In this document: in pieces, positions 19,410-58,082 of the stretch
Layout: the number at the start of each line of letters is the position of its first letter
Numbering within the stretch: the stretch's first letter is position 1
DNA from: a virus
Length of the DNA stretch: 64,000 nt
Direction: 5' to 3' (one strand)
Virus record (IMG/VR): IMGVR_UViG_3300024346_009227
Location: 1-64,000 of that record
The notes under the pieces: model-generated
What the model was told of the DNA's origin: nothing
Database searches by the model: none
The model's input: only the letters and a program-made list of their open reading frames with translations
Program-made: the position numbers and the translations under genes

Positions 19410-21701
19410 ATGTCAATTAAAGAATTGCAAAAATATACTGCTGTTTCTAAGTACGCTAGATGGATAGAGTCTGAAAAAAGACGAGAAACTTGGGATGAAA
19501 GCGTAGATAGAATAAAAGATATGATGATTGAAGTTAATCCTTCCTTGCATGAAGATATTGAAAAATATTATGGGATGATTAAAAATCAAAAAATATTAGG
19601 TTCACAAAGAGCATTACAATTTGGTGGAAAACCAATCCTTAAACATAACGCAAGAATATTTAATTGTTCTGCTAGTTATTGCGATAGATTAAGATTTTTT
19701 CAAGAATGTTTTTATTTATTGCTTTGCGGATCTGGAACTGGGTTTAGTGTACAAAAACACCATGTCGAATTATTACCAAAATTTTCATCCACTAGACTAG
19801 ATCCAGAAACATGTTGTTATCAACATCTTGTTCACAGGGTTGAAGATTCAATTGAAGGTTGGGCAGATGCTCTTGGCGTTCTTCTTTCCTCATATTTTGA
19901 AACTCCAATAAAAGGGTTTGAAAAATACAAAGATATTGAAGTTGCATTTAGTTATGTAGATATAAGAGAAAAGGGTTCTCCTTTGGGTTGTGGCATAGGC
20001 AATGCTCCAGGCCATGAACCTTTACAGAAAGCTTTAGAAAATATTGAGGCTTTACTTAAAAGGTGCATTGCAAATGGACAGACAGAATTACGAACAATAG
20101 ATGCATTTGACATAGTTATGTTTACTGCTGATGCTGTTATCTCTGGCGGTGTTCGTAGATCTGCAACTATAGCCTTGTTCTCTGCTGATGACGAGTTGAT
20201 GATCAATGCAAAGACTGGCGATTGGTATTTTACTAATCCACAAAGGGCTAGAGCAAACATCTCTGCCCTGCTTCATAGAAAACACACCAGTAAAGAAGTG
20301 TTTGAAAATCTTTTTAAAGCAACAAAAGAGTTTGGTGAGCCAGGATTTTTCTTTGCTGATTTTTACGATGTCTTATGCAATCCATGCTGTGAGATATCAT
20401 GGATAACTAGGCACTTCTATAAGAAGAACAGTCCAGAACTAGCCGAGGCTTTGTCATTATATGAAGGACCAATAACAACAAAAGAGTCATGCAAAGATGA
20501 CATGCCAGAAGATGAGGTCGGTCTTTCTGGTTGGGGATTCTGCAATTTATCAACCATTAATGGAAAAACAATAACTTCAGAAGAAGACTTCTACGAAAGA
20601 TGTGCTGCTGCTGCGTTTATTGGTACATTACAAGCATCTTTTACCAATTTTCCATACTTGGGTCATGTTACAGAACTTATCGCTCGTAAAGAGGCATTAT
20701 TGGGCGTTTCAATTAATGGTATGCAGCATCATCCAAAAATACTTTTAAATCCAGAAATTCAGCAGAAAGGTGCTGAGATAGTAAAGAATACAAATAAAAA
20801 GTACGCCTCTATTTTAAACATAAACCCTGCTGCCAGAACGACTTGTGTCAAACCAGAAGGCAATTCTGCTGCTTTATTAGGTTCAACATCAGGCATTCAT
20901 CCAGATCATAGCAGGAGGTATTTCCGTATTGTCCAAGCTAACCAGCTTGAATCTCCTTATCAACACTTTAAAACCATTAATCCTCAAGCATGTGAAGAAT
21001 CTGTATGGTCATCTAATAAAACAGATGATTGTATAAGGTTTTGTGTGCAAAGCCAAGATGGCACAGTACTTAAGGAAGAAATAAATGCTATATCTATGTT
21101 GGACAATGTTGTTTCAACATATAAAAATTGGGTAGTTTCTGGTAAAAATCCAGAGCTTTGCATTAGAAAAGAACTAAATCACAATGTGTCTAATACAATA
21201 CATGTACAAGATGATGAGTGGGATAAGGTAAAAGATTATATTTATGATCATCGTGCAGATCTTGCTGGAATATCGCTTATAGCTTCTAGTGGAGATAAAG
21301 ATTATAATCAAGCACCATTTACAGCAGTTTATTCAATTGAAGAACAAATAAAAAATTGGGGTTTTGAAGCTACATCTATGGCTTATGAAATATACCCAAA
21401 ATTTTCTGAGTATAGCTTTAATTCTTTGTGGGATTCATGTTCTTGTGTTCTTGGTTATTTTGAACCAAAAGATAAGAAGCAAGAATCTTGGAAAATCATA
21501 GTGCAAAAATATGCAGACGAATATTTTTCTTCTAATATTAAGTACGCTACATACGCACTTAAAGATGCATATAACTTAGACTTATGGAATAAATTAGTAG
21601 ATAGTTATTCAGAAGTAAATTATTTAAATGTTTTAGAAGAAAAATCTACAATAAATATACAAGGCGAACTGGCTTGTGCTGGCGGTGCGTGTTTATTATG
21701 A
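19410..21701 (+). CDS. nrdJ: class II (adenosylcobalamin-dependent) ribonucleotide reductase
   Basis: 763 aa, monomeric RTPR type. It reduces ribonucleotides to deoxyribonucleotides with a thiyl radical formed from adenosylcobalamin, with no separate small subunit. Visible landmarks: FNCSASYC (redox Cys region), CGSGTGFSVQ, NPCCEISW (radical Cys C326, base E328), GFCNLSTING (C378), CVKPEGNSAALLGSTSGIHP, and the C-terminal redox pair CAGGAC. The distance between NPCCE and FCNLS (about 52 residues) is long and contains a polar insertion with its own Cys. An oxygen-independent enzyme suits a phage of varied-oxygen habitats; it needs host cobalamin. Confidence 0.95.
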   Translation: MSIKELQKYTAVSKYARWIESEKRRETWDESVDRIKDMMIEVNPSLHEDIEKYYGMIKNQKILGSQRALQFGGKPILKHNARIFNCSASYCDRLRFFQECFYLLLCGSGTGFSVQKHHVELLPKFSSTRLDPETCCYQHLVHRVEDSIEGWADALGVLLSSYFETPIKGFEKYKDIEVAFSYVDIREKGSPLGCGIGNAPGHEPLQKALENIEALLKRCIANGQTELRTIDAFDIVMFTADAVISGGVRRSATIALFSADDELMINAKTGDWYFTNPQRARANISALLHRKHTSKEVFENLFKATKEFGEPGFFFADFYDVLCNPCCEISWITRHFYKKNSPELAEALSLYEGPITTKESCKDDMPEDEVGLSGWGFCNLSTINGKTITSEEDFYERCAAAAFIGTLQASFTNFPYLGHVTELIARKEALLGVSINGMQHHPKILLNPEIQQKGAEIVKNTNKKYASILNINPAARTTCVKPEGNSAALLGSTSGIHPDHSRRYFRIVQANQLESPYQHFKTINPQACEESVWSSNKTDDCIRFCVQSQDGTVLKEEINAISMLDNVVSTYKNWVVSGKNPELCIRKELNHNVSNTIHVQDDEWDKVKDYIYDHRADLAGISLIASSGDKDYNQAPFTAVYSIEEQIKNWGFEATSMAYEIYPKFSEYSFNSLWDSCSCVLGYFEPKDKKQESWKIIVQKYADEYFSSNIKYATYALKDAYNLDLWNKLVDSYSEVNYLNVLEEKSTINIQGELACAGGACLL

Positions 21702-24632: not shown

Positions 24633-25064
24633 ATGGCAAAACAAAGAAGTGACGATAGCAAATACGAATCCAGACATGGTGGTGGTTGGATTACTCCAGC
24701 ACAATTCTTAGCTGAAGTTATGTGCGAAAGAACAGCCAAAGAAAACCTAGAAGAATTACCTATTAAGTTTTGGAACAAACCAAGATGGAAAAAGGAATTT
24801 TTCAAACAATTAAATTTAGCCAATATAATCTTAAAAGATCATGATGCAGCAGTTGTATCTAAAGCACTTAGATCTAAAGAAGGCAAAAAGATATTTTCAT
24901 TAGGTGCTCCTTGGCTTAAGAAGTTAATTATCTTGGAAGAAAAAAGCTTTAAAGAAATTTCAAGCTTGACTGAATCAAAAGAAGCTGTAGAACTTCCAAT
25001 TAGAAAAACCTTTCAGCAATCTAAATCTTTAATTAAAAGAATAAAGGAACTAGACAATGAGTGA
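24633..25064 (+). CDS. conserved phage hypothetical protein next to the recombinase
   Basis: 143 aa, basic. It begins MAKQRSDDSKYESRHGGGWI, followed by TPAQFLAEVMCERTAK, KFWNKPRWKKEFFKQL and repeated charged helices. Its composition and place directly before the RecA-like gene (8-nt overlap) suggest a DNA-binding accessory protein. No family is recognised. GATTAATT precedes the ATG, a weak ribosome-binding site that may rely on coupling. Confidence 0.58.
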   Translation: MAKQRSDDSKYESRHGGGWITPAQFLAEVMCERTAKENLEELPIKFWNKPRWKKEFFKQLNLANIILKDHDAAVVSKALRSKEGKKIFSLGAPWLKKLIILEEKSFKEISSLTESKEAVELPIRKTFQQSKSLIKRIKELDNE

Positions 25065-27078
25065 CAATCTTGAAAAAATCTTAAAAGAAGTAGATAAACA
25101 GTATGGCAAAGGTGTTGCTATAAATGCTAACGACTTATTGGATGAAGAAAAACATGTAATACCTTTATCTCCAGCATTAAACTTGGGTTTGCATGGTGGA
25201 ATACCAGAAGGTTCTTGGATCACATGCTCTGGACACCCAAAAAGTGGGAAAGAACAACCTGTCTCTGCCATAGTTTATACAGCTAATGGGCCAAAAAGAA
25301 TTGGCGATATCACATATGGAGAAATGATTTGTTGCCCAAACGGAACAACATCTATGGTTTGTGGTATTTATCCACAAGGCGTAAAAGATGTTTACACAGT
25401 AACATTTTCAGATGGATCAACAGCAGAGTGCGGAGAAAATCACTTATGGAATATAAAAACTAGAGAACAAAAATCTTATAAAACTGTAATGTTAAAAGAT
25501 TTTATGAACAAAATATATATAGGCAAAAGCACTAAAGCTAAGTATTCAATACCAATAACAGCACCAGCAAAATTTAATCCGATTAAGATTCCAATAAACC
25601 CATTTGTATTTGGTGCTTTGCTTACTGTTGGATTTTTTAATAAAAAAATTACTGCATTGATTGAGGATGAAAAGCTTCGTGATCGCATTTGCGATCTAAT
25701 GAATGGAGCCAAGATACTTTACACAAAACAAGAAAATCAATTAACAATAAACATACATGATGAGTTAAGAGAGCTAGGTCTTCTTGGTAAAAAAACATCT
25801 CAAAAATTTATACCACCAAATTATTTATATAATTCAGTAGAAAACAGAATGTCTTTACTGCAAGGGATACTCAGCTTTGCACATATAACAAAAACAGAAA
25901 CTCCAATTGTTACAGTTTCATCAAAGCAATTTGCTGAAGACTTTAGGCTATTAGTTCAGTCTCTAGGTGGAATATGTTTAATATCTAGACATCAAAACAA
26001 TGAAGACAACTTTATTTATTATTGTTCTATTATCATTAAAAATAAAAAGAAGTTATTTGAATTTAAAAAAGAAAAGTTTAAAAAGAAAGATGTAAAAAAC
26101 AATTTATCCAGAAAAATAATATCTGTAGTAAAAACAAGAAGAGAACAAAGTGTTTGTATCTCAGTTAGAGATAAAAGCGGTTTGTATTTAACAGACAACT
26201 TTGTTGTAACTCATAACACGCTTACCTCACTATCTTTTGCTGCTCAATGTCAAAAACCAGAGAATGGTTCTAGACATGTGTATTATCTAAACATTGAAGG
26301 TCGATTAAAGCCTATGAATCTAAGGGGCATAGCTGGCTTAGATTTGAATAAAATGACAATCTATAGATCTACTCAAGATAAGATTCTTACCGCAAAGGAC
26401 TACCTAAATCTGGCCTTTAAAGCCATCAATACCCATCCAGGTAGCCTGATCATTATAGATAGCGTTTCTGCTCTATGTGATGAGAAGGAAATGGATCAAG
26501 GTATTGGCTATGAGAATAGAGGGGCTGGTAATAAGCTTTTTGCTGGTTTTTGTAGACAAGCAGCTAATATAGTACCAGTACAAAACTGTATGGTTTGGGC
26601 GATTATGCATCTAACGCAATCTCAAGGTATGTATGGTGGTTATACAGAAAAGGGTTCTAGAACATTGCAATATCAGGCAGATGTTCAAATGAGGGTAAAG
26701 TCTGATAAGCCTTGGACTGTTGGTGGTGAAGGAAAAGACAAGCAAATTGGTCAGCAAGTGCATTGGCTAATTGAATCTTGTTCTTTAGGGTCACCAGGAA
26801 TGGAAGTAGATAGTTATATAAGATATGGTATTGGAATAGATAATACATACGAAGCAATTAATTTAGGTTGTCAGCTTGGCCTTATAAACAAAGCTGGTGC
26901 TTGGATGACATTAGATTTTATGGAAAGACATTTAAAGCTACTGAAAGCTGAAGCTTGGGATGATGCTACTATTAAGTTAGTTAAAACTCAAGGTGCAGAA
27001 AAAATGTATAAATTATTGTTAGAAAATCCTAAGTGGATTGCTGCTCTAGAAAAAGAAATTAAGGCTATTATATCGTGA
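25057..27078 (+). CDS. RecA/UvsX-like recombinase interrupted by an in-frame intein
   Basis: 673 aa precursor; about 351 aa after removal of the 322-residue intein. The protein would pair homologous DNA for recombination-dependent replication and repair. Extein motifs: P-loop GHPKSGK (59-65) continuing as TLTSLSF after the intein, Walker B GSLIIIDSVSALCDE, and the MHLTQSQGMYGGYTEKGSRT region corresponding to the L2/monomer-interface segment. Distal parts (RMKVKSD-like, LIESCSLGSPG) fit phage RecA. The P-loop is split between Lys65 and Thr388, so the recombinase can bind ATP only after splicing. AAAGGA upstream supports the ATG. Confidence 0.88.
   Translation: MSDNLEKILKEVDKQYGKGVAINANDLLDEEKHVIPLSPALNLGLHGGIPEGSWITCSGHPKSGKEQPVSAIVYTANGPKRIGDITYGEMICCPNGTTSMVCGIYPQGVKDVYTVTFSDGSTAECGENHLWNIKTREQKSYKTVMLKDFMNKIYIGKSTKAKYSIPITAPAKFNPIKIPINPFVFGALLTVGFFNKKITALIEDEKLRDRICDLMNGAKILYTKQENQLTINIHDELRELGLLGKKTSQKFIPPNYLYNSVENRMSLLQGILSFAHITKTETPIVTVSSKQFAEDFRLLVQSLGGICLISRHQNNEDNFIYYCSIIIKNKKKLFEFKKEKFKKKDVKNNLSRKIISVVKTRREQSVCISVRDKSGLYLTDNFVVTHNTLTSLSFAAQCQKPENGSRHVYYLNIEGRLKPMNLRGIAGLDLNKMTIYRSTQDKILTAKDYLNLAFKAINTHPGSLIIIDSVSALCDEKEMDQGIGYENRGAGNKLFAGFCRQAANIVPVQNCMVWAIMHLTQSQGMYGGYTEKGSRTLQYQADVQMRVKSDKPWTVGGEGKDKQIGQQVHWLIESCSLGSPGMEVDSYIRYGIGIDNTYEAINLGCQLGLINKAGAWMTLDFMERHLKLLKAEAWDDATIKLVKTQGAEKMYKLLLENPKWIAALEKEIKAIIS
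25252..26217 (+). mobile_element. intein in the recombinase P-loop, class 3-like, degraded homing endonuclease
   Basis: 322 residues (precursor 66-387) between extein ...SGK and TLT.... Block A is EQPVSAIVYTANGPKRIGDI, with Glu instead of Cys/Ser at position 1. Block B has SDGSTAECGENHLW, with His129 and Trp131 (precursor numbering). Block F has SVCISV with Cys367. Block G ends FVVTHN (Thr385, His386, Asn387), followed by Thr388. Trp, Cys and Thr at these places are the hallmark of class 3 inteins, which use the block F Cys as first nucleophile. The middle holds weak LAGLIDADG-like helices (FVFGALLTVGFF and LLQGILSFAH) lacking the catalytic acids, so homing is probably lost while splicing is kept. 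Confidence 0.82.
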
Positions 27079-27473
27079 AAGTAATAGGTCTTGATGGTAA
27101 AACTTACTCTTGGACTTCTGGCAATGTTCCAGATCATGATGATTCTAAACCTAGATCTTCATTGCATTTATTGGCTAGATCTATGCTTAAAGCAATGTAT
27201 CCAATGGACAGAATCTTAGAAGAAGCAACTTTGCCTGGTTCTGGAGGTTTAGCAGCAGACTTTTGGTTGCCATTGAGGAAAACAATAGTTGAAGTTCATG
27301 GGGAACAACACTACAAATTCATACCCTTTTTTCATAATACAATGTTGAACTTTTATCATTCCAAAAAAAATGATAAAAATAAAATAGAGTGGTGTGAAAA
27401 AAACAACATTTACCTTATAGAGTTACCATTCAATGAATCAGAACAACAATGGCGAAAAAGAATTGAAGGTTAG
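27075..27473 (+). CDS. PD-(D/E)XK-type endonuclease-like protein
   Basis: 132 aa. The core is RILEEATLPGSGG, then AADFWLPLRKTIVEVHGEQH, with Asp in ADF and Glu in VEVHGEQHY. This is the D...E-x-x-G-x-Q-H arrangement of Vsr/DUF559-like nucleases. A C-terminal EWCEKNNIYLIELPFNE strand completes the fold. Nucleases of this kind next to phage recombinases act in repair or branch resolution; the precise substrate is unknown. The start overlaps the recombinase stop (GTGAAAG; GTG start) and the 3' end overlaps the next gene by 41 nt. Confidence 0.65.
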   Translation: MKVIGLDGKTYSWTSGNVPDHDDSKPRSSLHLLARSMLKAMYPMDRILEEATLPGSGGLAADFWLPLRKTIVEVHGEQHYKFIPFFHNTMLNFYHSKKNDKNKIEWCEKNNIYLIELPFNESEQQWRKRIEG

Positions 27474-33377: not shown

Positions 33378-33405
33378 TTAATTGAAAAAAATTTAAGGAT
33401 TGAAT

Positions 33406-35322
33406 ATGAATTGGATACCATTGCATTGTCATACCCATTATAGCTTATTGGATGGATTAAGTAAGCCAGATCTTTTAGCAAAAAGATGCAAAGAACTTGG
33501 ATATACTTCATGTGCCATAACTGATCATGGAACTATATCTGGTGCTATTTCTTTTTCTAAAGCTTGTATTTCACAAGGTATAAAACCAATCATTGGTTGT
33601 GAATTTTATATTTGTGCAAATCCAGCAACAGAACATAATAAAGAAAACTCAAGTTTAACTCATCTGTGTGTCATTGCTAAAAATCTAAATGGCTGGAAAA
33701 ACTTAATTAATTTGTCTTCTTTAGCTAATTCGTTAGATTATTTTTATTACAAACCAAGATTAAACTTAAATGACTTCAAAGGACTTTGCAGTGATTTAAT
33801 TGCATTTTCTGGTCATCCAGGAACAGATTTGGCTAATTCTTTATTTGAAGATCATAAAGAGGCTTACAAAAGAACTGATTATGATGAAATAAAAGAAATG
33901 CTTAAACCCAACTGGCTAAATGAAGCTGGAAATATTTGTGCAAAATACATTGAGATATTTGGGGCAGATAATTTTTTTGTAGAAATACAATTATTTGATA
34001 GCTCTAACTTAGTTGCATCAAAGGTTATTGCTGAATGCCTAAGAGAACTTTGTGCAAAAACTGGTATTAAAAAAATAGCAACTCCAGATGTTCATTATGT
34101 TATGCCAGAAGATGCTCCTGATCAAAGGGTTTTATTGTGTTCTTCAATGGAAACAACCCTTAAGAATGTAAATAGCAAATTAGAAAACAACGAAGAATTT
34201 GGCCTTTCTGTATTTTTTAAATCAAATAAATACTATCTTCCAACAATTGAAGAAATATCTAGCTTCCACGAAGAAGATGAAATAAACAATTGTTGCTTAA
34301 TTGATAGCTTGTGTGAAAATTATTCACTTATAAAACAACCAGCCATACCAAACTTTGCTTGTCCAGATGGTCTTTCTCAGATCCTTTATTTGAGGAAGTT
34401 ATGCAGAGATGGGTGGAATAGGCGTTTCTCTGCAATAAAGCCAAAAACAGATGAATATAAGGTATACACAGAGAGAATAAAGCACGAACTTGAAGTTATA
34501 GATACTTCTGGTTTGGCTGGATACTTTTTAATTGTGCAAGACTATTGCAATTGGGCAAAGTCTAAGGGTTGGATTATGGGTAGAGGTAGAGGTTCTGGTG
34601 CTGGCTGCATGATATCTTACCTCTTGGGTATAACAGAAGTAGACCCCATTAAACATTCTCTTATATTTGAAAGATTCTATAACGCAGGAAGAAACTCTGC
34701 TGGCCGTATAAGTTTGCCAGATATTGACTGTGACTTTCCAATTACAAAGCGTGATAAGGTAATAGAATATATAAAGCAAAAGTATGGGAGCAGCAATGTT
34801 TGTCAAATGATAACATTTAGTCGTATGCAGGGGCGTGGATCATTAAAAGATGTTCTTAGAGTTCATGGGTTTTCCTTTGAAGAAAGTAATAATGTAACAA
34901 AGTATATTCCAGACGAATCAGAGATATCTGAACAGTTACAAGATATGAAAGATGAAGATGGAGATTCTTCAATAATAAGGTGGGCGTTAGAGAATATTCC
35001 TGATAGATTATCTGAGTATTGTAGGATTGAAAAGGATGGTACTTACTCTGGAAGATTAGCAAAGGAATTTGCACAAGCAATAAGATTAGAAGGAACAAAA
35101 AGAAGTCAGGGTAAACATGCTGCCGGTATAGTTATTAGCAACATTCCATTATCAGAAGTTTGTCCAATGACATTTGATAAAAAGACAAAGCAGATGATAG
35201 CTGGCATGGAAATGTCAGACTTAGAATCAATCGGAATGGTTAAGTTTGATATACTTGGAGTTGCAGTTTTAGACAAAATAATGGGTTGTATAAATATTTT
35301 AAAGGGTAAACCAAATGAATGA
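33406..35322 (+). CDS. DNA polymerase III alpha subunit, N-terminal fragment (PHP and palm)
   Basis: 638 aa. PHP domain first (LHCHTHYSLLDG, metal-binding His), followed by the palm and thumb of bacterial C-family DNA polymerases: MGRGRGSGAGCMISYLLGI, LPDIDCDFPITKRDKV (catalytic D441 and D443) and VKFDILGVAVL (third catalytic Asp, D615). It stops 23 residues after that Asp. The fingers and C-terminal parts are encoded by the gene at 36226, after two other genes. An ATG at 33406 with AAGGAT upstream is chosen. The two parts must associate to make the polymerase. Confidence 0.9.
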   Translation: MNWIPLHCHTHYSLLDGLSKPDLLAKRCKELGYTSCAITDHGTISGAISFSKACISQGIKPIIGCEFYICANPATEHNKENSSLTHLCVIAKNLNGWKNLINLSSLANSLDYFYYKPRLNLNDFKGLCSDLIAFSGHPGTDLANSLFEDHKEAYKRTDYDEIKEMLKPNWLNEAGNICAKYIEIFGADNFFVEIQLFDSSNLVASKVIAECLRELCAKTGIKKIATPDVHYVMPEDAPDQRVLLCSSMETTLKNVNSKLENNEEFGLSVFFKSNKYYLPTIEEISSFHEEDEINNCCLIDSLCENYSLIKQPAIPNFACPDGLSQILYLRKLCRDGWNRRFSAIKPKTDEYKVYTERIKHELEVIDTSGLAGYFLIVQDYCNWAKSKGWIMGRGRGSGAGCMISYLLGITEVDPIKHSLIFERFYNAGRNSAGRISLPDIDCDFPITKRDKVIEYIKQKYGSSNVCQMITFSRMQGRGSLKDVLRVHGFSFEESNNVTKYIPDESEISEQLQDMKDEDGDSSIIRWALENIPDRLSEYCRIEKDGTYSGRLAKEFAQAIRLEGTKRSQGKHAAGIVISNIPLSEVCPMTFDKKTKQMIAGMEMSDLESIGMVKFDILGVAVLDKIMGCINILKGKPNE

Positions 35323-35593
35323 TAACTCTCTTGAAATATCTATAATAAGTAAGTTAGTAGTTCAACAAACAGCCTTGTTAGATGCTTTGTCTGATTGTTC
35401 TTCATTAAAGAAAGATCTTGTTAAACAGGCTAATAAACTATTAAAGGCAATAACAATTCAAAATGGAGGCATATTAATTATAGATAAGGATTTTTTAGAT
35501 TCAGCAGAAGATGCAGAAGTTGAACTTAAAATACAGCAAAATGATGATGGATCAATAGAATTAACTATTAAAGGAGAAGAAGATGAAGAGTAA
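35315..35593 (+). CDS. hypothetical protein within the split polymerase
   Basis: 92 aa, begins MNDNSLEISIISKLVVQQTA, a helical N-terminus followed by a beta-like NGGILIIDKDFL and a very acidic end (NDDGSIELTIKGEEDEE). Located between the N-terminal polymerase gene and the exonuclease gene, with 8- and 11-nt overlaps, so it may be part of the polymerase complex. No family recognised; it could be a small bridging subunit. Confidence 0.58.
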   Translation: MNDNSLEISIISKLVVQQTALLDALSDCSSLKKDLVKQANKLLKAITIQNGGILIIDKDFLDSAEDAEVELKIQQNDDGSIELTIKGEEDEE

Positions 35594-36221
35594 TACGATT
35601 ATTGTTTTTGATTTTGAAACAGGATCTTTAGATACAAATACTTGTGAAGTTATTCAAATTGCTGCAAAGGCAATAAATAGAAAAACTCTTCAACCAATAG
35701 AGGGTGCAGTTTTTAACAGTCTTGTAAAACCTAGAGACTTTGGAAATTTGCAAGAAGCAGCACTAGCAGTAAACAAAAAGACAAGAGAAGAACTTCAGCT
35801 TGCACCTAATCTTGATGTTGTTTGGAGTAGGTTTATTGATTTTATATCTACTTTTGCAGTTGGTAAAAGCAATATATTAGCCCCTGTTCCAGCAGGAAAA
35901 AACATCAGATTTTTTGACATGCCAATCTTTCAAAGGGTTTGTGTTGAATTAGGATATGTTCAACCAAATGCCACACAATCTTTCTTCAATAAAAGAAGCA
36001 TGTTTGATTTAGATGAAATGATGTTGCTTTGGTTTGAAAATTCAGATGATATGCCTAATATGAAAATGGATACTATTAGAGATCATTTTGGAATGTCGAA
36101 GGCTAATGCTCATGATGCACTAGTTGATGTTGAGCAAACAGCAGACTTAATCACATACTTCTTAAAACTACATAGATCAATATACCCAAAGGTTAAATTT
36201 AAAGACTCATTTAAGAAATAA
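35583..36221 (+). CDS. DnaQ-like 3'-5' proofreading exonuclease
   Basis: 212 aa, DEDDh exonuclease: VFDFETGSL (D10, E12) and the C-terminal AHDALVDVEQT (H177, D182), with an intermediate FFDMPIFQRVC Asp. This is the proofreading activity of bacterial Pol III epsilon. It sits between the two halves of the alpha subunit, which makes the polymerase gene order alpha-N, small protein, epsilon-like, alpha-C. Confidence 0.85.
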   Translation: MKSNTIIVFDFETGSLDTNTCEVIQIAAKAINRKTLQPIEGAVFNSLVKPRDFGNLQEAALAVNKKTREELQLAPNLDVVWSRFIDFISTFAVGKSNILAPVPAGKNIRFFDMPIFQRVCVELGYVQPNATQSFFNKRSMFDLDEMMLLWFENSDDMPNMKMDTIRDHFGMSKANAHDALVDVEQTADLITYFLKLHRSIYPKVKFKDSFKK

Positions 36222-36225
36222 TAAT

Positions 36226-37851
36226 ATGACAAAAACATACAAATTTTCATGCGGTTGTAGTTTTCCAATAATTGGAGATCCTTTAAGCAAAGATTCTTTG
36301 CCTCTAATGGAAGTAGATCCAACCAATCTTCCTTCTTGCGATATTGCTTGGGATATATTTTCTAGGGGCGATACAAAAGGAATTTTTCAGTTAGAATCAG
36401 ATCTTGGAAAACAATGGTCTAAGAAACTAAGACCAAAAACTGTTGATCATTTAACTGCTTTAGGTGCTCTTATCAGGCCAGGAGCTTTGCGTTCTGTGGA
36501 TGATAAGGGCGTTAGTATGACCGCACATTATTGTCGTATTGTAAATGGTGAGGAACAGGTTTCATCCTATCATCCTATTGTTGATGAAGCACTCAAATCA
36601 ACTTATGGATCACTTGTTTTTCAAGAACAGGCAATGGAACTTTCTAGGGTTATCGCTGGATTTACTTTGCAAGAGGCAGATATGCTTCGTAAAGCAATGG
36701 GAAAGAAATCATCTAGTGAAATGGCAAAATGTAAGAAGATGTTTATTGAAGGTGCTAAAAAAATAGAAGTTGTTTCAGAAGATCAAGCCGAAGAAATATT
36801 TGGATGGATCGAACAGAGTCAAAAATATTCCTTCAATCGCAGTCACAGTTGTTGTTACGGCTTAATTGGATATGATACGGCATATTTAAAAAGTCACTTT
36901 CCAGTTCAATTCTTTACTAGCTGGCTTTATTTTGCTAAGGACAAGGCAGATAGTCAGCTTGAAATATCTGACTTAATTGAAGATGCAAAAAAATTTAATA
37001 TAGCTGTTCACTCTCCAGACATAATGATGTTAAATAGCAATTTTTACACTGACGGAATATCAATTTGGTTTGGTATTACTGATGTAAAAGGAATTGGACA
37101 ATCACAATTTGAAAAAATTAAACTAGCTATAAATAATTATGGCAAAAGTATAGATTCTTGGGAAGAATTTGTTGTTAAATGTTCTGATGAAATGCCAAAA
37201 TCAAGTATTGAAAAACTAATTGCCGTTAACGCTCTAAGAAAATTTGGCAACAAAAGAAAGGTTCTTCTTGCTGAATTTAATGCTTGGTCTGAATTAACAG
37301 ACAAGGAAAAGGAATGGATAAAAGCCAATGTTGAAATTACTAATATACCAGATATGATTTTAAACTCAGCAAAGACAAAAAAAGAAGGTGGTTGTTGTTC
37401 TTCAGTCAAAAGAGTTGAGGTTTTAAAAAGCATAGCCTCTATGATTAAAAATCCTCCTTCTCCTTTGATAGATATTCCAAGTTGGGTGTGTTGGATTGAA
37501 AAGGATTCTTTAGGAATTTCTTTAACATATAATGCTACAGACTCTTGCGATACAAGTAGTTCTAACACTACATGCAAAGAATACTTAGATGGAAAGAATG
37601 GCTATATGGTCTTTGGTGTTGAAGTAAGAAGGTCTAAAGAAGTGCTTACAAAGGCTGGAAAAACACCAGGATCTAGAATGGCATTTTTATCAATATCTGA
37701 TGCTACTGGCAAAATAGATGATGTTATCTGTTTTCCAAACTCGTACAAAGATTTTGCTTCTTTGTTAAAAGAGGGTAATACAGTCTTGATTCAAGGTGAA
37801 CGAGACAAAAAAAGTGACACTCTTTTAGTTAAAACTGTTGTTCAAATTTAG
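36226..37851 (+). CDS. DNA polymerase III alpha subunit, C-terminal fragment (fingers, HhH, OB)
   Basis: 541 aa. After a short N-terminal region with CGCSFPIIG, it aligns with the bacterial alpha subunit from SRGDTKGIFQLESDLGKQW onward: ALGALIRPGALRSV, YGSLVFQEQAMELSRVIAGF (fingers), SFNRSHSCCYGLIGYDTAYL, a helix-hairpin-helix part (ITDVKGIGQSQFEKIK) and a C-terminal OB fold (GSRMAFLSISDATGKIDDVI). The catalytic aspartates are in the N-terminal gene at 33406. No intein sequence is present at either junction, so this is a true gene split rather than a trans-splicing pair. Confidence 0.9.
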   Translation: MTKTYKFSCGCSFPIIGDPLSKDSLPLMEVDPTNLPSCDIAWDIFSRGDTKGIFQLESDLGKQWSKKLRPKTVDHLTALGALIRPGALRSVDDKGVSMTAHYCRIVNGEEQVSSYHPIVDEALKSTYGSLVFQEQAMELSRVIAGFTLQEADMLRKAMGKKSSSEMAKCKKMFIEGAKKIEVVSEDQAEEIFGWIEQSQKYSFNRSHSCCYGLIGYDTAYLKSHFPVQFFTSWLYFAKDKADSQLEISDLIEDAKKFNIAVHSPDIMMLNSNFYTDGISIWFGITDVKGIGQSQFEKIKLAINNYGKSIDSWEEFVVKCSDEMPKSSIEKLIAVNALRKFGNKRKVLLAEFNAWSELTDKEKEWIKANVEITNIPDMILNSAKTKKEGGCCSSVKRVEVLKSIASMIKNPPSPLIDIPSWVCWIEKDSLGISLTYNATDSCDTSSSNTTCKEYLDGKNGYMVFGVEVRRSKEVLTKAGKTPGSRMAFLSISDATGKIDDVICFPNSYKDFASLLKEGNTVLIQGERDKKSDTLLVKTVVQI

Positions 37852-50541: not shown

Positions 50542-51951
50542 TTACACCAATCTGGTTATAGTTACAGTTCCTTTTTTATATTCATGGTCAGGTGTATTAA
50601 TCGTAAATGCCCTACTTGTTACGACATAATATGAATAATATTCATCTAAATCAAGCGTTACTTTAGAATCTTCCAAGGTATTACGCCAAGTACAATCCAA
50701 AACTAATTTTCCATCTTTTGCATTAAAATCATTGAAAAATACATCAATTCTAGAGTCAGAAGACATAGAAATCTTTTGATTGTTTCCTGCACCACAGTCG
50801 CAAATCGCTATGCCAAGATCTGTTCCTTGACTACTTGAAAATGAAAGTGGAGTAATCATATAAGGATAAGTTAATCTAGAATCAACACAATTTTTGTGAT
50901 CTACAAAAACACATTCAAGATTACCTGTTTCATATCTATAATTATCTCGCTCTATGCCACCTTGAATAAATGTGTATATTCTTTTTGCATTATAATTTCC
51001 ATGCGATACACATTTTGGTTCATTAGTAAATGCTACTGGATTAGTAACCCAACTTGCCTGACCATTGCCTTCAAGTTTATATACTGGTTGCTCTTCATTA
51101 GCTGGTCTTGCATAACATAATAATTGTTGGCAAACATTTATTTTTAAATCTACTCCTGTTACTCCACAACAAAACCATTCTGATGGTAAAGAAACTATTA
51201 TAGCTCCATCTTGCATATTTGTTTTTTTAGTTGAATAAACTTTTGTCCATTCTACATCATCAAAAACTGGAAGAGTTCCACCAAATGTTCTTTTCGGTCT
51301 TGCGTATAATGAACAATTAATTCCATTATTAGTTTCTTTTACTTGAATCCATGTAGTTGATTCTATAGTGTTAGTGCCATCTTGAGATCCATTCCAATCA
51401 TCTACTCCAAATGCACCCTGATAAAGTCCAGCATATTTCATATTATATACATTTCCACTTTTTGTACTCCATCCCGAAAAATCTATGGTTCCAGCAAACA
51501 ACAATCTTTTTCTTCCGTCTGGCATAACATTTCCATATGGACCCTTATCTGTTTCTACCATGTCTGGTGCAGTATATACTCCATATGTGTTGCTCCATAC
51601 TGCTTCATGTGCTGGTATTGGGTATGGTCTATGTACAAAAATTAAAAATCCAGTAACAAGACTAAAAGTGCTTTTAACACCATCCATTTCTTTACATGGA
51701 CATAGACCCTTTGAGCAACAAGCACATATTACTGGGGGTGGAGTTGTTGATGGTTCTGGTGGTCCAACAGTTGTCGTATTTGGATTAACAGTTGTCGTGT
51801 TTGGATTAACAGTTGTCGTATTTGGATTAACAGTTGTCGTGTTTGGATTTGTGGTTGTAGTTGGTCTAACTGTAGTTGTTGGTGCAGCAGTAGTGGTTGT
51901 TGTTGTAGGGCAACATACAGAACACTGAAATGTTTCTGGTGACTTAGGCAT
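50542..51951 (-). CDS. tail/virion protein with N-terminal Thr-rich linker
   Basis: 469 aa. An N-terminal cysteine head (CSVCCPTTTTTTAAPTTT) is followed by four NPNTTTV repeats and then a second cysteine cluster (CACCSKGLCPC), then a beta-rich domain of about 370 residues. The Thr/Pro/Asn linker is mucin-like and likely extended. The remaining domain has KRLLFAGTIDFSGWSTKSG and similar segments, no known family. A tail-surface adhesin or decoration protein is the best guess. On the minus strand, TAGGAAAAAAATA precedes the ATG. Confidence 0.62.
   Translation of the reverse strand: MPKSPETFQCSVCCPTTTTTTAAPTTTVRPTTTTNPNTTTVNPNTTTVNPNTTTVNPNTTTVGPPEPSTTPPPVICACCSKGLCPCKEMDGVKSTFSLVTGFLIFVHRPYPIPAHEAVWSNTYGVYTAPDMVETDKGPYGNVMPDGRKRLLFAGTIDFSGWSTKSGNVYNMKYAGLYQGAFGVDDWNGSQDGTNTIESTTWIQVKETNNGINCSLYARPKRTFGGTLPVFDDVEWTKVYSTKKTNMQDGAIIVSLPSEWFCCGVTGVDLKINVCQQLLCYARPANEEQPVYKLEGNGQASWVTNPVAFTNEPKCVSHGNYNAKRIYTFIQGGIERDNYRYETGNLECVFVDHKNCVDSRLTYPYMITPLSFSSSQGTDLGIAICDCGAGNNQKISMSSDSRIDVFFNDFNAKDGKLVLDCTWRNTLEDSKVTLDLDEYYSYYVVTSRAFTINTPDHEYKKGTVTITRLV
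51766..51849 (-). repeat. four 21-bp tandem repeats coding NPNTTTV
   Basis: Four tandem units of 21 bp (51766-51786, 51787-51807, 51808-51828, 51829-51849) differ only at one position (A/G alternating). On the minus strand each encodes the seven residues NPNTTTV. The alternating A-G-A-G pattern indicates duplication of a 42-bp pair of units. Confidence 0.85.
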
Positions 51952-53361
51952 TTATTTTTTTCCTATAATCTTTATTCCATACATTTCAAGTGTTTTATAT
52001 ATATTTGAAAGTTCCTCTTTGAGCAAAGAGAGTTCATCAGTTTCTTCTTGGTTAGATTGTTTAAATGGTGAGTATGAAGATATAGAGCATCCTTGAACAT
52101 CTGCATATGTAACAGTTATGCTTCCATTAGAACAACTAATGCTTTTAACTACCGAAACTACATTTGTACATGTATTTGGTGAAGAAGTTGTTGTTGGCGT
52201 AGCAGTGGTTGTTGGCTCTGAAGTAGTTGTAGTAGTTGGATCTGGAGTTGTGCTAGTTGTTGTACTTGTAGTTGTACTAGTTGTTGTACTTGTAGTGGTA
52301 CTAGTTGTTGTGCTGGTAGTGGTACTGGTGGTTGTGCTTGTCGTACTAGTTGTACTAGTTGTGCTGGTTGTAGTCGTTGTTGTTGTTGGATCTGGTGTTG
52401 TACTGGTCGTTGTAGTTGTAGTAGTTGTTGTGGTTGTTGTTGGATCTGGAGTTGTACTAGTCGTTGTACTAGTCGTGCTAGTGGTGCTAGTTGTAGTCGT
52501 TGTTGTAGTTGGATCTGGCGTTGTACTAGTCGTTGTACTGGTGGTTGTCGTTGTAGTTGGATCTGGAGTTGTGCTGGTCGTTGTACTTGTTGTGCTAGTC
52601 GTGCTAGTTGTAGTCGTTGTTGGATCTGGAGTTGTGCTGGTCGTTGTACTTGTTGTGCTAGTCGTGCTAGTTGTAGTCGTTGTTGGATCTGGAGTTGTGC
52701 TGGTCGTTGTGCTTGTTGTGCTTGTTGTGCTAGTTGTACTTGTCGTAGTAGTCGTAGTAGTTGGATCTGGTGTTGTGCTTGTTGTAGTAGTAGTAGTCGT
52801 AGTAACAGAATCACAAGAACCTAATGATGCAACTGTTCCTCCTGATATGTTATAAAAATTAGTTTTGTCTGAAAGAATAATTGATATTAAATATGGATCA
52901 TTTAATCCTGTGTCAAGATACAATGATGAACCGATTACTAAGTTTTCATCTTCAGAATATAAAGGAAAGCTATCTGTAGAATCACAAGCTTCTAATGCTA
53001 TGTTACCACTGATTCCATAATATAAAGTATGTGTGTAGTATACCGGTGGAGTAAATGTAAGATATCTTGTAAGAGTTGCCCCAGTAATACCAGTAGGATA
53101 GTCTGCACCAAAAGTTATATTTGAGTACTGACTAAATACCCCTAATTGAAGAAATGATGACCCACCAGGAAAAATAACTTCATAACCATTAACTGTTGCA
53201 CTACCTCCATCAAAGTTATAAGTTGAAATAACTTCTAATGTTCCACGATAGTAAAGTCTCCAAACAGTATTGCAATAACCATCTACAGTTAAAGTATTTC
53301 CACTAACGCTTCCGCAAATACTATTTCCGCTAACATAACTAAATGTTGGATTTGCTGGCAT
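51952..53361 (-). CDS. virion protein with very long Thr/Ser linker and shared C-terminal motif
   Basis: 469 aa. Residues 1-193 form a beta-rich domain with several cysteines (ICGSVSGNTLTVDGYCNTVW). Residues about 194-395 are a Thr/Ser tract with eight STTPDP landmarks. After TCTNVVSVVKSISCSNGSIT comes a short coiled coil: LKEELSNIYKTLEMYGIK. The last ~25 residues match those of the 1573-aa neighbour (LTGQLSNLYNMLELYGIK). Thus head, stalk and an assembly module are separate. Probably a tail-tip or fibre protein. The stop abuts the next gene and the start overlaps the previous one by 1 nt. Confidence 0.68.
   Translation of the reverse strand: MPANPTFSYVSGNSICGSVSGNTLTVDGYCNTVWRLYYRGTLEVISTYNFDGGSATVNGYEVIFPGGSSFLQLGVFSQYSNITFGADYPTGITGATLTRYLTFTPPVYYTHTLYYGISGNIALEACDSTDSFPLYSEDENLVIGSSLYLDTGLNDPYLISIILSDKTNFYNISGGTVASLGSCDSVTTTTTTTTSTTPDPTTTTTTTSTTSTTSTTSTTTSTTPDPTTTTTSTTSTTSTTTSTTPDPTTTTTSTTSTTSTTTSTTPDPTTTTTTSTTTSTTPDPTTTTTTTSTTSTTSTTTSTTPDPTTTTTTTTTTTTSTTPDPTTTTTTTSTTSTTSTTSTTTSTTTSTTTSTTTSTTTSTTTSTTTSTTPDPTTTTTSEPTTTATPTTTSSPNTCTNVVSVVKSISCSNGSITVTYADVQGCSISSYSPFKQSNQEETDELSLLKEELSNIYKTLEMYGIKIIGKK
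52193..52803 (-). repeat. low-complexity Thr/Ser codon repeat (coding)
   Basis: A ~610-bp tract of ACN/TCN-type codons read on the minus strand, with recurrent GGATCTGG blocks (complement of the codons for PDP). Repeat units vary in length (roughly 48-150 bp) between the eight STTPDP landmarks, and the tract shows runs of TTS repeated several times, typical of slipped-strand expansion. The other frames are open by composition only. Confidence 0.8.
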
Positions 53362-56300
53362 TATTTATCCCCTAATGTTTTTATCCCATACAATTCAAGC
53401 ATGTTATATAGGTTTGACAATTGACCAGTTAATGATTGAACTTGAGCACTTAAAAGTTTTATTTGTATACTTGTTGGCAATCCACTTTGAGGTGGTGGTG
53501 GCATAGTTGTGGCACATTTTACTGCATAATCATAGTCTACAGATAGTTCGCCATCAGCATCACAAGTAACGCCAACCACAACCCTTAGACAACCAGCATT
53601 TGGATCTGCTGTTGTTGTTGGTCCTTCAGTGGTAGATGTTGGGCTAGCTGTTGTAGTTGGAGCCTGAGTGGTGCTGGTAGTACAATATCCCCCTAATGGT
53701 TCATCTGTTACAACTCTAGCATCTTCACAATTATTGGGTGCATCACAACCTGTGTATGGACCAGAACTACTTTCATCTACTTCCGTTGAGCAATAATGAC
53801 ATTCATTATCTTCATATTTATTTAACCAATAATCTGGACATAAAGTTGTCGATGTTGATGTAGTTGTTACACATGGGTATCCTACATTCTCATTTTGTTG
53901 ATCTGCATCTATAGCACAATCTTCTGCTTTAGTTGGACCAGTATATTCTCCATTTGAATCATAATGACAACTAAAGCATGGATCATCAAAAACAAGTGTC
54001 ATTGAACAATTAGTGTTAAGTCCAGGCAATTGTGATTCACAGACCTCTAATGTGAATGGTCCAGATACATAATTAGGACTTCCACAAAATTGAGTACAAT
54101 TATAACATTCTGACTCTGTTTCAACAACACAGTATGCTGGTGCAGGAGTTGTTGTTGGTGCTATTGTTGTTGGTGCTATTGTTGTTGGTGGAGCAGTGGT
54201 ATTATTATTAGGATCTGTTGTTACTGGAACAATGTCTTTTAAAAGACCATTTTTAAATTTTAAGGTTGTTATTGATCCTTCTTTTGTAACTAATACTGCT
54301 TGATTACCAGTAAATCCATTTGTATTAACAAAGAACATTCCTTCTGTTGATTCGCATTCATCCTGTGCAACTTGTACTTTAAAGTCAGAACTATTCTCTT
54401 TAGTGGTTGTTGTTGTTGGTGTGTTTGGATCTACAGCAGCAGGACAATCTGATACTTGACCATCAAATTTTATTTTTATTTGTTCGCCTTTAATAATCCA
54501 TCTTCCGTCATTAGCTGAATAGCAAAGAAGTACAGATTGATTAGCGTATATTTTTCTTGCTGAAAAATTTTTAATTAATATTTGTTGTGATGATCTATTA
54601 CCATTCATGTTTAAATATACATAGCCATCATCAAATGGTCTTATGTTTGATACAGCAAAGCCAGTGGCTATATCGTGAGAAGTCCAAACACCTCTATACT
54701 TATCCCACATTAAATCAACTGGTCCAGCTAAACCTTCTCCTGTTGCATAAGCAACACTATTTGGCAATACTTTTGGTATAGGAACAGCAACTACTTCATC
54801 ATATCTATTTTTTACTGTTACTAAATTTCCATCGCCATCAGTTAATAAATCATAATCCATATATGAATTGCCATACCCAACAACCATAATTGGGCCACGA
54901 AGACCTACTGGTTGACATTTAATTACATTTCTTGGACCATATCTTGAATGAACATATATTGCTTCTTTATTGCCATTAAGAACATTTCCTGACGATTCAA
55001 GAAAATCAGCAGCATGATAATTATCATAAATATAACCTCCATCACCATGAAAGCTATGTATTGCTGGAGGTCTGCCACCAGGAAATTTCCAATCTCCTTT
55101 TACTTCATCTGTATATCTGTATGGATTATATGTGTATGCTGTTGGGAGTCCTTCTGGAGCAGAAAGAAAAGAGCCATATGGAATTGATGTCACTGTATTT
55201 AATAGAGATTGACTTCCAAAATTGTTGAATGGTGAAAATAGACCATCATAAGAAACAGCACCTTTATTTCTATAATCTCCAGATTGAATCGCCATAGCAC
55301 CAGCACTCTCTATGTTGCTATGAGATCCACCAATTGTTTTTCTTCTTACAGTTGCACCCTTATCTGCCATAGGATCAATTGTTTGGGCTAATACTATATT
55401 TTGATGTGGTGTATTTCTGTCGTATCTTCTTCCAAGATAATTTAGTACAAAGTTTTGTATTTTTGCTCCAGCAAAAGATCTCTGTAGAGATTGAGCTTTC
55501 TTTATTGATTCCATATAAACAAACAATATATTTTTTCTGTCAGAATATGCTTTTATGGCAGACTTTTTAAGTCTTTCTGTATTATATCTTGATGGCATTC
55601 CAAATTTTGGAGTAAATGTTCTAAATGAATATTGTGTGGTTACACCAGATGGTCCATATGATGTATTTATTGATGTTACTATTGGACCATTCTTTACTAT
55701 TTCATCACCAAGATTATGTTCTGGCAAACCAATTTTATTTAAAGAACCAGTTTCAAAATAAGGAACTGGATTTATATCTTTTAATCTATTTTTAGCAGCT
55801 TCTTCTAATGTTCCAGATGCGTTGAATTGCCAAGGAACTAAGTCGTTGTTCTGCTCTATTTTTGTTTTTCCACCTTTTGTATTCCCAAAATACCAAGGGC
55901 CATAAAAATCATTTCTTGTAGATTTGAAGTTAAGCATTGCTTGAAATGGATATAGTGCAGGAAGACCTGTTTTAAAATTTTCAGATTGACCAAGCACTTG
56001 ATTTCTATATTGTAATCCAAAATAGCATGTTACAAGTGCATCAACGCCAAATTGATTGTGTATCAATCGATTAAATGCAGCAACAGATTGTCCTATTGAA
56101 ACTAATACATGCTCTGAATCTTTTTTGTCTACACCAATATATTGAGTGCTTATCCATGTTCCAACAGTTCCTAAACCAACTACTTCAGAATGCACTGTTG
56201 TTTTTATTAATGCGTTTTGGGCTATTGGAATAGTTACATATTGTTCGTTTACTGAGGCTTTGACCCATAAATATTGAGAACCGCTATCTGAATAAGAAAT

Positions 56301-58082
56301 TGTGTCTGAAGAACTACTATCGTATGTAAATTGAGTTTCCCATGAATTTGGTAAGTTAAAAATTAACCAATTCTGCATTTTTCCATCTTGATTTAATGCC
56401 ATAGCATTTAACATTTCTCTAGGCAAAGAAGTATTTGTCTTTGCTTCAAGAATTGCTGGATCTATCCATCCAGAATCAGTTGGTAAAATATTGTATATTT
56501 TTTTAGGTTGATTTTGTTTAATATTTAAATCTAAACTGTCTGAACTTGTATAGCTTTCTAATACTTGTTTTATTAAAAGGCCATCGCTTTTAGAATCTGG
56601 CTTGTTTTGTCCATTATCAACAGTATTATAATTAAGGTCACCTTTATAATTAACTTCTACTAAAAATTGTTTGCCGTAATATGAATCTATTACTGATTTT
56701 AAATAGGTAAAAAGTTGTGCCCCACGAATAACTCCTATATCATTATCTTTTTCTGAAAACTCTCTTTTCAATGGAAATTCTGTAGATCCACCACCAGCCA
56801 TAAAGTTGGCAACCATAGAGATATTTGTTCTTGGAGCTTTAAGAAATACTCTAGTGTATATATTGTCATTAGCAAAAGCATCATCCCATATTTCTAAATA
56901 CAATGACCAATTGTCTTGATTGCCACCAGTTATCAACAACAACTCATCCATTGTCATTTCATAATATGTAGCACCAGGAAATATTGATTCCATTCCAACT
57001 AAAGGTATTCCCCAAGCATTTGCTTTTATAGTAGAATGACTAGATATGGAAGGTCTTAAACTATTAAATCTATAGTTATAATACGGACATGCACATTTTA
57101 CAACATCATAAGATGCAGATGACCAATATGCTTCTCCATTAATATCATATCCCCAAAATTGTTTTATTCTTGAATTTGGACCAGCAGCATTGCCATAATA
57201 ATTTTGAGTGTAATTTACTGGTGTTCCAACAACAACATTCATTTGAGTTAAACTTACATCGTTATTAAAACAAATACTATGTTCTTTTAATCCACCCCAA
57301 AGCATAAAGTTTGATTCAATATTGTTGGAAGACTCAACTCCAGCATCCCAAGAAATAACATTCCTGTCTTTTGCCAAATCTTTTATAACATTTTGAACTT
57401 TTTGATTGGCTGCATCTACACCTAGACTTGTTGTTTGAACTGTAAATTCTGTGCCTGTGAGAGTAATCTTAAACAATAAACCTAAATCGTCACAAATTTT
57501 AGATATTAAATCCATTAAGTTTATATATGGGCCTTCTATTCTATAAAATTTTGGTACTTTGGTTGCAAAATCTAACTTTATTGAATATGGTACTCCAGCA
57601 GAAATAATCCCATATTTTTTAGAAAGTTCATTTATGCCTTCTTCAAGTTTTGAATACGGCATCCCTCCTTCATTAGCCTGACTCTTTCCAAACTCTTTGC
57701 TCTCCCACCATCTAAAAACATTGAACATGTTTATTATTGGGGAGTCTTCTTTTGCATCATTAGTTCCATATAAACTACTAGTTATTACTTCAACATTTTT
57801 AATTAATTCTTTTCCATCATTTAATTTTACTTCATAAAAAGTTCCACCAGTATCATGTTTTTCAATAACTCTATCTAGAAAACCATTAAAAACAAAAGCG
57901 TTATCTTTTTTTAACTTAAACTCATAATTTTTTCCTAACTCATATGTACCTATTGTTGTTTCATTATTTTCTGGATCTGGAGCAAGTTTTATATTTACAG
58001 ATGATTCTGTATCATTCCACCCAATAGATGAATTGAAATCTACTATTGTTAAACCTAAAAATTTTAATCTTTCAAAACTCAT
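53361..58082 (-). CDS. giant tail protein, modular with Cys-rich domains and Thr linkers
   Basis: 1573 aa. The N-terminal ~450 residues (FLGLTIVDFNSSIGWNDTES, KNYEFKLKKDNAFVFNGFLD) resemble in style baseplate hub / late-control-type tail proteins. A long beta-rich middle runs to ~1200. Four Thr/Pro linkers then separate small Cys-rich modules: ESECYNCTQFCGSPN, DPCFSCHYDSNGEY, NECHYCSTEVDE, each with several paired cysteines. It ends in the coiled-coil motif shared with the 469-aa neighbour (LYNMLELYGIKTLGD). Probably the tail-tip or host-contact protein. ATG 58082 has GAGTTTTG-like context and follows directly the preceding gene. Confidence 0.65.
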   Translation of the reverse strand: MSFERLKFLGLTIVDFNSSIGWNDTESSVNIKLAPDPENNETTIGTYELGKNYEFKLKKDNAFVFNGFLDRVIEKHDTGGTFYEVKLNDGKELIKNVEVITSSLYGTNDAKEDSPIINMFNVFRWWESKEFGKSQANEGGMPYSKLEEGINELSKKYGIISAGVPYSIKLDFATKVPKFYRIEGPYINLMDLISKICDDLGLLFKITLTGTEFTVQTTSLGVDAANQKVQNVIKDLAKDRNVISWDAGVESSNNIESNFMLWGGLKEHSICFNNDVSLTQMNVVVGTPVNYTQNYYGNAAGPNSRIKQFWGYDINGEAYWSSASYDVVKCACPYYNYRFNSLRPSISSHSTIKANAWGIPLVGMESIFPGATYYEMTMDELLLITGGNQDNWSLYLEIWDDAFANDNIYTRVFLKAPRTNISMVANFMAGGGSTEFPLKREFSEKDNDIGVIRGAQLFTYLKSVIDSYYGKQFLVEVNYKGDLNYNTVDNGQNKPDSKSDGLLIKQVLESYTSSDSLDLNIKQNQPKKIYNILPTDSGWIDPAILEAKTNTSLPREMLNAMALNQDGKMQNWLIFNLPNSWETQFTYDSSSSDTISYSDSGSQYLWVKASVNEQYVTIPIAQNALIKTTVHSEVVGLGTVGTWISTQYIGVDKKDSEHVLVSIGQSVAAFNRLIHNQFGVDALVTCYFGLQYRNQVLGQSENFKTGLPALYPFQAMLNFKSTRNDFYGPWYFGNTKGGKTKIEQNNDLVPWQFNASGTLEEAAKNRLKDINPVPYFETGSLNKIGLPEHNLGDEIVKNGPIVTSINTSYGPSGVTTQYSFRTFTPKFGMPSRYNTERLKKSAIKAYSDRKNILFVYMESIKKAQSLQRSFAGAKIQNFVLNYLGRRYDRNTPHQNIVLAQTIDPMADKGATVRRKTIGGSHSNIESAGAMAIQSGDYRNKGAVSYDGLFSPFNNFGSQSLLNTVTSIPYGSFLSAPEGLPTAYTYNPYRYTDEVKGDWKFPGGRPPAIHSFHGDGGYIYDNYHAADFLESSGNVLNGNKEAIYVHSRYGPRNVIKCQPVGLRGPIMVVGYGNSYMDYDLLTDGDGNLVTVKNRYDEVVAVPIPKVLPNSVAYATGEGLAGPVDLMWDKYRGVWTSHDIATGFAVSNIRPFDDGYVYLNMNGNRSSQQILIKNFSARKIYANQSVLLCYSANDGRWIIKGEQIKIKFDGQVSDCPAAVDPNTPTTTTTKENSSDFKVQVAQDECESTEGMFFVNTNGFTGNQAVLVTKEGSITTLKFKNGLLKDIVPVTTDPNNNTTAPPTTIAPTTIAPTTTPAPAYCVVETESECYNCTQFCGSPNYVSGPFTLEVCESQLPGLNTNCSMTLVFDDPCFSCHYDSNGEYTGPTKAEDCAIDADQQNENVGYPCVTTTSTSTTLCPDYWLNKYEDNECHYCSTEVDESSSGPYTGCDAPNNCEDARVVTDEPLGGYCTTSTTQAPTTTASPTSTTEGPTTTADPNAGCLRVVVGVTCDADGELSVDYDYAVKCATTMPPPPQSGLPTSIQIKLLSAQVQSLTGQLSNLYNMLELYGIKTLGDK

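Follow-up and report, generated by a model that had tools for sequence, protein, structure and literature searches.

A class 3 intein with a probably non-cutting endonuclease domain in the P-loop of a phage UvsX-like recombinase

The window analysed here comprises the first 64,000 nucleotides of the 116,974-base IMG/VR virus record IMGVR_UViG_3300024346_009227. One of its genes encodes a UvsX/RecA-type recombinase (Pfam RecA, 8.7e-12; TIGR02012, 7.7e-19; phrog_97 UvsX-like, 1.3e-23), in which the Walker A motif of a RecA-family ATPase core is interrupted between Lys and Thr (GHPKSGK/TLT, the slash marking the junction) and becomes contiguous only after precise excision of the insert. The insertion of 322 residues between GHPKSGK and TLTSL described in the initial annotation is borne out: the insert spans exactly 322 codons. 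The features of the gene and of its surroundings in the window are as follows.

25057..27078, + strand: UvsX/RecA-type recombinase precursor, 673 amino acids (N-extein, intein and C-extein), from RecA/UvsX profile matches
25057..25251, + strand: N-extein, 65 amino acids, ending in the Walker A sequence GHPKSGK, the Lys of which is residue −1
25252..26217, + strand: class 3 intein as judged from its sequence, 322 amino acids, Glu1 to Asn322 (E66-N387 of the ORF)
25252..25467, + strand: N-terminal part of the Hint domain, residues 1-72, with Glu1 and block B (ECGENHLW), which contains Gly61 (B:7), His64 (B:10) and Trp66 (B:12)
25585..26061, + strand: LAGLIDADG domain, residues 112-270, predicted to be catalytically dead (profile, AlphaFold2, Foldseek, alignment)
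26086..26217, + strand: C-terminal part of the Hint domain, residues 279-322, with Cys302 (F:4), Thr320 (G:5), His321 and Asn322
26218..27078, + strand: C-extein, 286 amino acids, starting with the Walker A Thr (the +1 nucleophile); the stop codon takes up the final three bases
27075-27473: 132-amino acid nuclease-like protein overlapping the recombinase stop codon (phrog_9084 homing endonuclease, 5e-15)
19410-21701: 763-amino acid protein matching a ribonucleotide reductase family of phages (phrog_367, 5e-89)
33400-35322, 35583-36221 and 36226-37851: DNA polymerase III alpha in two pieces, separated by a DnaQ-like exonuclease ORF

The ribonucleotide reductase-like protein matches one Pfam model of that family only, below the cut-off. 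The polymerase pieces carry PHP and NTPase domains, and finger, HHH and OB domains; a split intein was considered for this fractured gene and rejected, there being no recognisable intein sequence at the fragment ends. Two proteins of 469 and 1573 amino acids on the − strand (50542-51951 and 53361-58082), which belong to a block of large minus-strand ORFs, have no PHROG match.

The insert in the recombinase is an intein, as first proposed, and chance resemblance is excluded. A tblastn search with the intein matched 423 phage records (best E 2e-44), and a profile of the intein and its relatives matched the solved inteins gp41-1 (5e-21), PI-SceI (1e-17) and the class 3 intein DnaBi1 (4e-13). Its AlphaFold2 model (pLDDT 92, pTM 0.91) has the Hint fold and was matched by Foldseek to the endonuclease-bearing inteins TliVMA (5e-15) and PI-SceI (3e-13), to PhoVMA and to class 3 DnaB inteins. 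The empty site is seen in homologues with C-extein identities of 59-60% (L166-169, TCSGKPKTGK/TVTT) and 37-42% (L257-267, for example FTGEPKTGK/TTT), and these intein-free genes give the exact GK/T junction.

By its sequence, the intein is a further member of the large known class 3, situated in a recombinase P-loop. Class 3 is defined by a Trp-Cys-Thr triplet (PMC3196547, PMC5222942), the Cys of which (F:4) is essential in those members that were tested by mutation (PMC5222942). The triplet is formed here by Trp66, Cys302 and Thr320, which are Trp131, Cys367 and Thr385 of the ORF, and lies in blocks B, F and G just as the initial annotation had placed it; a nucleophile at position 1 is absent, this residue being Glu (Ala in L120-122). 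Trp66, Cys302, Thr320, His64, His321 and Asn322 were invariant in 12 and then in 35 diverse relatives, and the triplet, the B:10 His and the terminal His-Asn are also invariant in all aligned inteins of the clade. The +1 residue is Thr, and 125 of 126 relatives have Thr or Ser at this position. A tree of the splicing blocks (133 columns), in which eight class 1 inteins served as the outgroup, places the intein with the class 3 set and apart from class 1 with 100/98 support; because the columns are few and the branches long, only this deep split is used. The class 3-like nature put forward at the outset is supported by alignment and phylogeny alike.

The closest known parallels are the class 3 inteins Msm DnaBi1 and MchDnaB1 (6bs8, 6rix), which share the triplet, the Hint fold and insertion into a P-loop directly before the Mg-coordinating Ser/Thr, but are mini-inteins devoid of an endonuclease domain and reside in a replicative helicase; DnaBi1 furthermore combines Ala1 with an Asp at B:7, and its +1 residue is Ser. 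Phage terminases and helicases (Methanosarcina virus MetMV TerL, the helicase of Vibrio phage 424E50-1 and others) harbour class 3 inteins that resemble the window intein in full-length identity (about 32%), blocks and GK/T sites, but mostly combine Ala1 with a residue other than Gly at B:7 and retain the LAGLIDADG Asp residues. The same P-loop site is also occupied by class 3 inteins in divergent viral recombinases, where residue 1 is Ala (L032/L034), Cys (L033), Leu (L039) or Asp (L043).

Two further features of the class 3 group were observed in passing. Cys is found at position 1 of L033, L087, L186, L368 and L377, and L033, from one of these other recombinase P-loops, has the complete Trp-Cys-Thr signature. 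Definitions that require Cys1 to be absent exclude these five from class 3; they are possibly intermediates between classes 1 and 3. HNW takes the place of HLW in block B of L039, L077 and L104.

Following the established class 3 chemistry, splicing would proceed in four steps: (i) Cys302 would attack the Lys(−1)-Glu1 peptide bond to form the block F branched thioester, (ii) transesterification would move the N-extein to Thr+1, (iii) cyclisation of Asn322, assisted by His321, would release the intein, and (iv) an O-to-N acyl shift would restore GHPKSGKTLT and with it an active P-loop. Glu1 would play no part in this chemistry. Because the insert bisects Walker A and no second recombinase of the family was detected within the record, it is reasonable to expect that recombinase activity would depend on splicing. 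No second intein was found in the record either, whether by a class 3 profile or by TIGR01445. The dN/dS of the C-extein is 0.01-0.07 throughout, and the intein-bearing gene is therefore functional. Non-splicing class 3-like inteins do exist (PMC3196547), and the insert might be an inactive pseudogene of this kind, like Arsp-FB24 Arth_1007; Arth_1007, however, has lost Cys F:4 and His B:10, whereas the catalytic residues here are intact and conserved in the clade, and the gene that carries them is the single recombinase copy found in the record, all of which makes such a pseudogene highly improbable.

The intein is passed on vertically with the phage. It is present in all 61 informative homologues with a C-extein identity of at least 74% and in none of the 15 with an identity of 60% or less; extein and intein trees agree in their main groups, and third-position distances of exteins and inteins are correlated with r = 0.95 and a slope of 1.0, as vertical inheritance predicts. 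The overlap of the nuclease-like gene at 27075-27473 with the recombinase stop codon, along with its 'homing endonuclease' profile match, raises the prospect of collaborative homing, in which its product would take over from the dead endonuclease domain in mobilising the intein. The gene, however, is just as regular downstream of the intein-free recombinases L166-169 and L257-267, and we rejected this explanation as very remote. Its position immediately after UvsX-like genes is conserved whether or not these carry the intein, and it therefore seems to be a partner within the operon, not a homing gene.

The endonuclease domain of the intein itself, which the initial annotation does not mention, has probably ceased to cut and to drive its spread, as read from its motifs. 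Block C is FGALLTVGFF and block E is LLQGILSFAHI, so that Val126 and Ala210 occupy the positions of the catalytic Asp residues in the alignment with PI-SceI and relatives. In 115 of 126 relatives, GDG closes the first motif, and the second mostly ends in DTD or DSD. The clade itself falls into three groups: group C (335-339 amino acids), with LGNG and an intact DTDG; group B (309-310 amino acids), with LGAG or LGCG and KVAG; and group A (322 amino acids), which includes the window intein, with LTVG or LTIG and SFAH or AFAH. Both catalytic Asp residues are gone in all members of groups A and B, and it is this loss that makes the endonuclease most likely non-cutting.

The dead domain has nonetheless remained under selection. 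The pooled dN/dS of its core is 0.125 (95% interval 0.07-0.20) in the main group A, 0.20 (0.15-0.27) in group B and 0.056 (0.035-0.082) among the close members of group C, compared with 0.03-0.15 for the Hint domain within groups; between groups A and B it rises to 0.59 (0.42-0.85), a value obtained at a synonymous distance near saturation. These values are most simply read as a period of relaxed selection at about the time when the two Asp residues were lost, with constraint restored afterwards. The purifying selection may mean no more than that the domain has to fold and to keep its reading frame.

The domain could be a leftover of the homing cycle, an endonuclease decaying after fixation and retained merely since clean deletions are rare. 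PhoVMA, which Foldseek matched to the model, has likewise lost both catalytic Asp residues and kept the domain (PMC8966425), although it is a class 1 intein with Cys1 in a V-ATPase subunit; moreover, the group B intein is 12 amino acids shorter than that of group A, and in both groups the endonuclease domain has evolved more rapidly than the Hint domain. A decaying remnant is harder to square with a dN/dS well below 1 in both groups that lack the catalytic Asp, and no frameshift or large deletion was seen in 20 distinct sequences. We regard this as a serious contender, with a likelihood somewhat short of even.

The PhoVMA and RadA precedents make conditional splicing a candidate to consider as well: the P-loop intein would be a switch that keeps the recombinase off until ssDNA, redox or a host signal is sensed, with the dead endonuclease domain as a regulatory hinge or DNA sensor. 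The RadA inteins of P. horikoshii and T. sibericus occupy the same functional site, the P-loop of a RecA-family recombinase, but are archaeal mini-inteins without the endonuclease domain and not of class 3; their control by ssDNA and temperature was shown experimentally (PMC5790916). ssDNA speeds up the P. horikoshii intein nearly 50-fold, and the region that formerly held its endonuclease serves as a hinge (PMC5790916); DnaBi1, a class 3 intein likewise situated in a P-loop, is under redox control (PMC6195587). In the clade studied here, constraint on the dead domain is evident inside each of groups A and B (dN/dS 0.12-0.20), although the domain evolved rapidly between the two (0.59). This constraint may, however, be purely structural, and a phage may need fast, unconditional splicing, so that we consider a switch of this sort unlikely. 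In the reading that we prefer, the dead domain would be retained as a scaffold for splicing or folding, or as a modulator of splicing; removal of the endonuclease domain impairs splicing in some inteins (PMC8966425).

The initial annotation had singled out Glu1 as unusual. In a census of 126 distinct class 3 inteins outside the clade, residue 1 was Ala in 100, Ser in seven, Glu in five, Cys and Leu in three each, Asp and Val in two each, and others once each, and Glu1 is indeed uncommon; no class 3 intein with Glu1 was found among the experimentally tested ones in the literature surveyed. It is not an oddity of this phage, however, because it recurs in several unrelated hosts and is predicted by the Gly at B:7. 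Within the clade, residue 1 is Glu wherever the N terminus is visible, save for L120-122 (contigs identical with L015-017), and outside it Glu1 occurs in terminases (L025, L045, L076), helicases (L038, L104) and an SNF2-like ATPase (L222), the names of these hosts being read from flanking sequence and annotated only in part.

Residue 1 covaries with B:7: Glu, Asp, Gln, Leu, Val and Met go with Gly, and Ala, Ser and Cys with residues other than Gly. In the census, Gly occupies B:7 in every Glu1 and Asp1 intein and in nearly all those with Leu, Val or Met, and in none of 106 Ala1 inteins. L120, the sole Ala1 member of the clade, has Glu instead of Gly at B:7, so that both positions differ together. 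The pattern was replicated in 38 inteins from a new scan, the search patterns of which touched neither position: Gly was present at B:7 in all nine with a large residue 1 (including Gln, not seen before) and in none of the other 29 (Fisher p = 6e-9, uncorrected for kinship). Overall, 185 of 186 class 3 inteins obey the pairing, the exception being L080 (Val1/Cys7); scan A6 did not enter into the rule, since Cys at B:7 is prescribed in one of its search patterns. When the two columns were removed before tree building, 12 independent phylogenetic pairs on supported branches were concordant in nearly every pairing and never opposite (sign test p = 0.0005). The named phage inteins examined later mostly fit (residue 1/B:7: Vibrio phage 2, Glu/Gly; KpGz_1, Asp/Gly; EFP01, Ala/Asn; FL15, Ala/Asp), as does the helicase intein of mycobacteriophage Stubby (Ala/Asp); the N-terminal junction of the Makemake TerL intein can be read in two ways, leaving its residue 1 ambiguous. 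A version of the rule based on a charge swap between an acidic residue 1 and an acidic B:7 was weaker than that based on size and Gly, and was dropped.

Published structures of other class 3 inteins place the two positions side by side: Asp62 (B:7) adjoins Ala1 in DnaBi1 (PMC6195587), and in AceL NrdHF Ser65 (B:7) hydrogen-bonds the Ala1 carbonyl (PMC7891396). AceL NrdHF shares the class 3 mechanism proposed for the window intein, but is split and has Met at B:12 (PMC7891396). The same work describes class 3 inteins as having no conserved residue at B:7, and no earlier report of the pairing was found in the literature searched, a set that lies outside key subscription papers. We infer a steric basis: the Glu1 side chain would occupy the space left by Gly at B:7, which elsewhere would be filled by a larger B:7 residue beside Ala1. 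It is improbable, on present evidence, that both parts of a bolder reading hold: that class 3 inteins are subject to such a packing lock, in which a large residue 1 needs Gly and a small one needs a side chain, and that in this phage lineage the dead endonuclease domain has been recruited as a DNA-responsive switch holding UvsX off until it is required.

Taken jointly, the observations are best explained by an intein of class 3 that splices in cis and lies in the P-loop of a UvsX-like recombinase, with an endonuclease domain that likely no longer cuts, vertical inheritance and a dead domain serving as scaffold or modulator, to which we assign a probability of about 90%; splicing, the loss of cleavage and the scaffold role are its inferred components. 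Most deserving of further attention are the pairing of residue 1 with B:7 and the dead endonuclease domain that is still under constraint. If true, the pairing rule would explain which first residues class 3 inteins tolerate and would aid their engineering. The clade, in turn, presents a series of endonuclease decay, in which one Asp and then both were lost in a P-loop recombinase intein that is still retained, and thus offers a way to ask whether the needs of splicing keep dead homing endonucleases in place.
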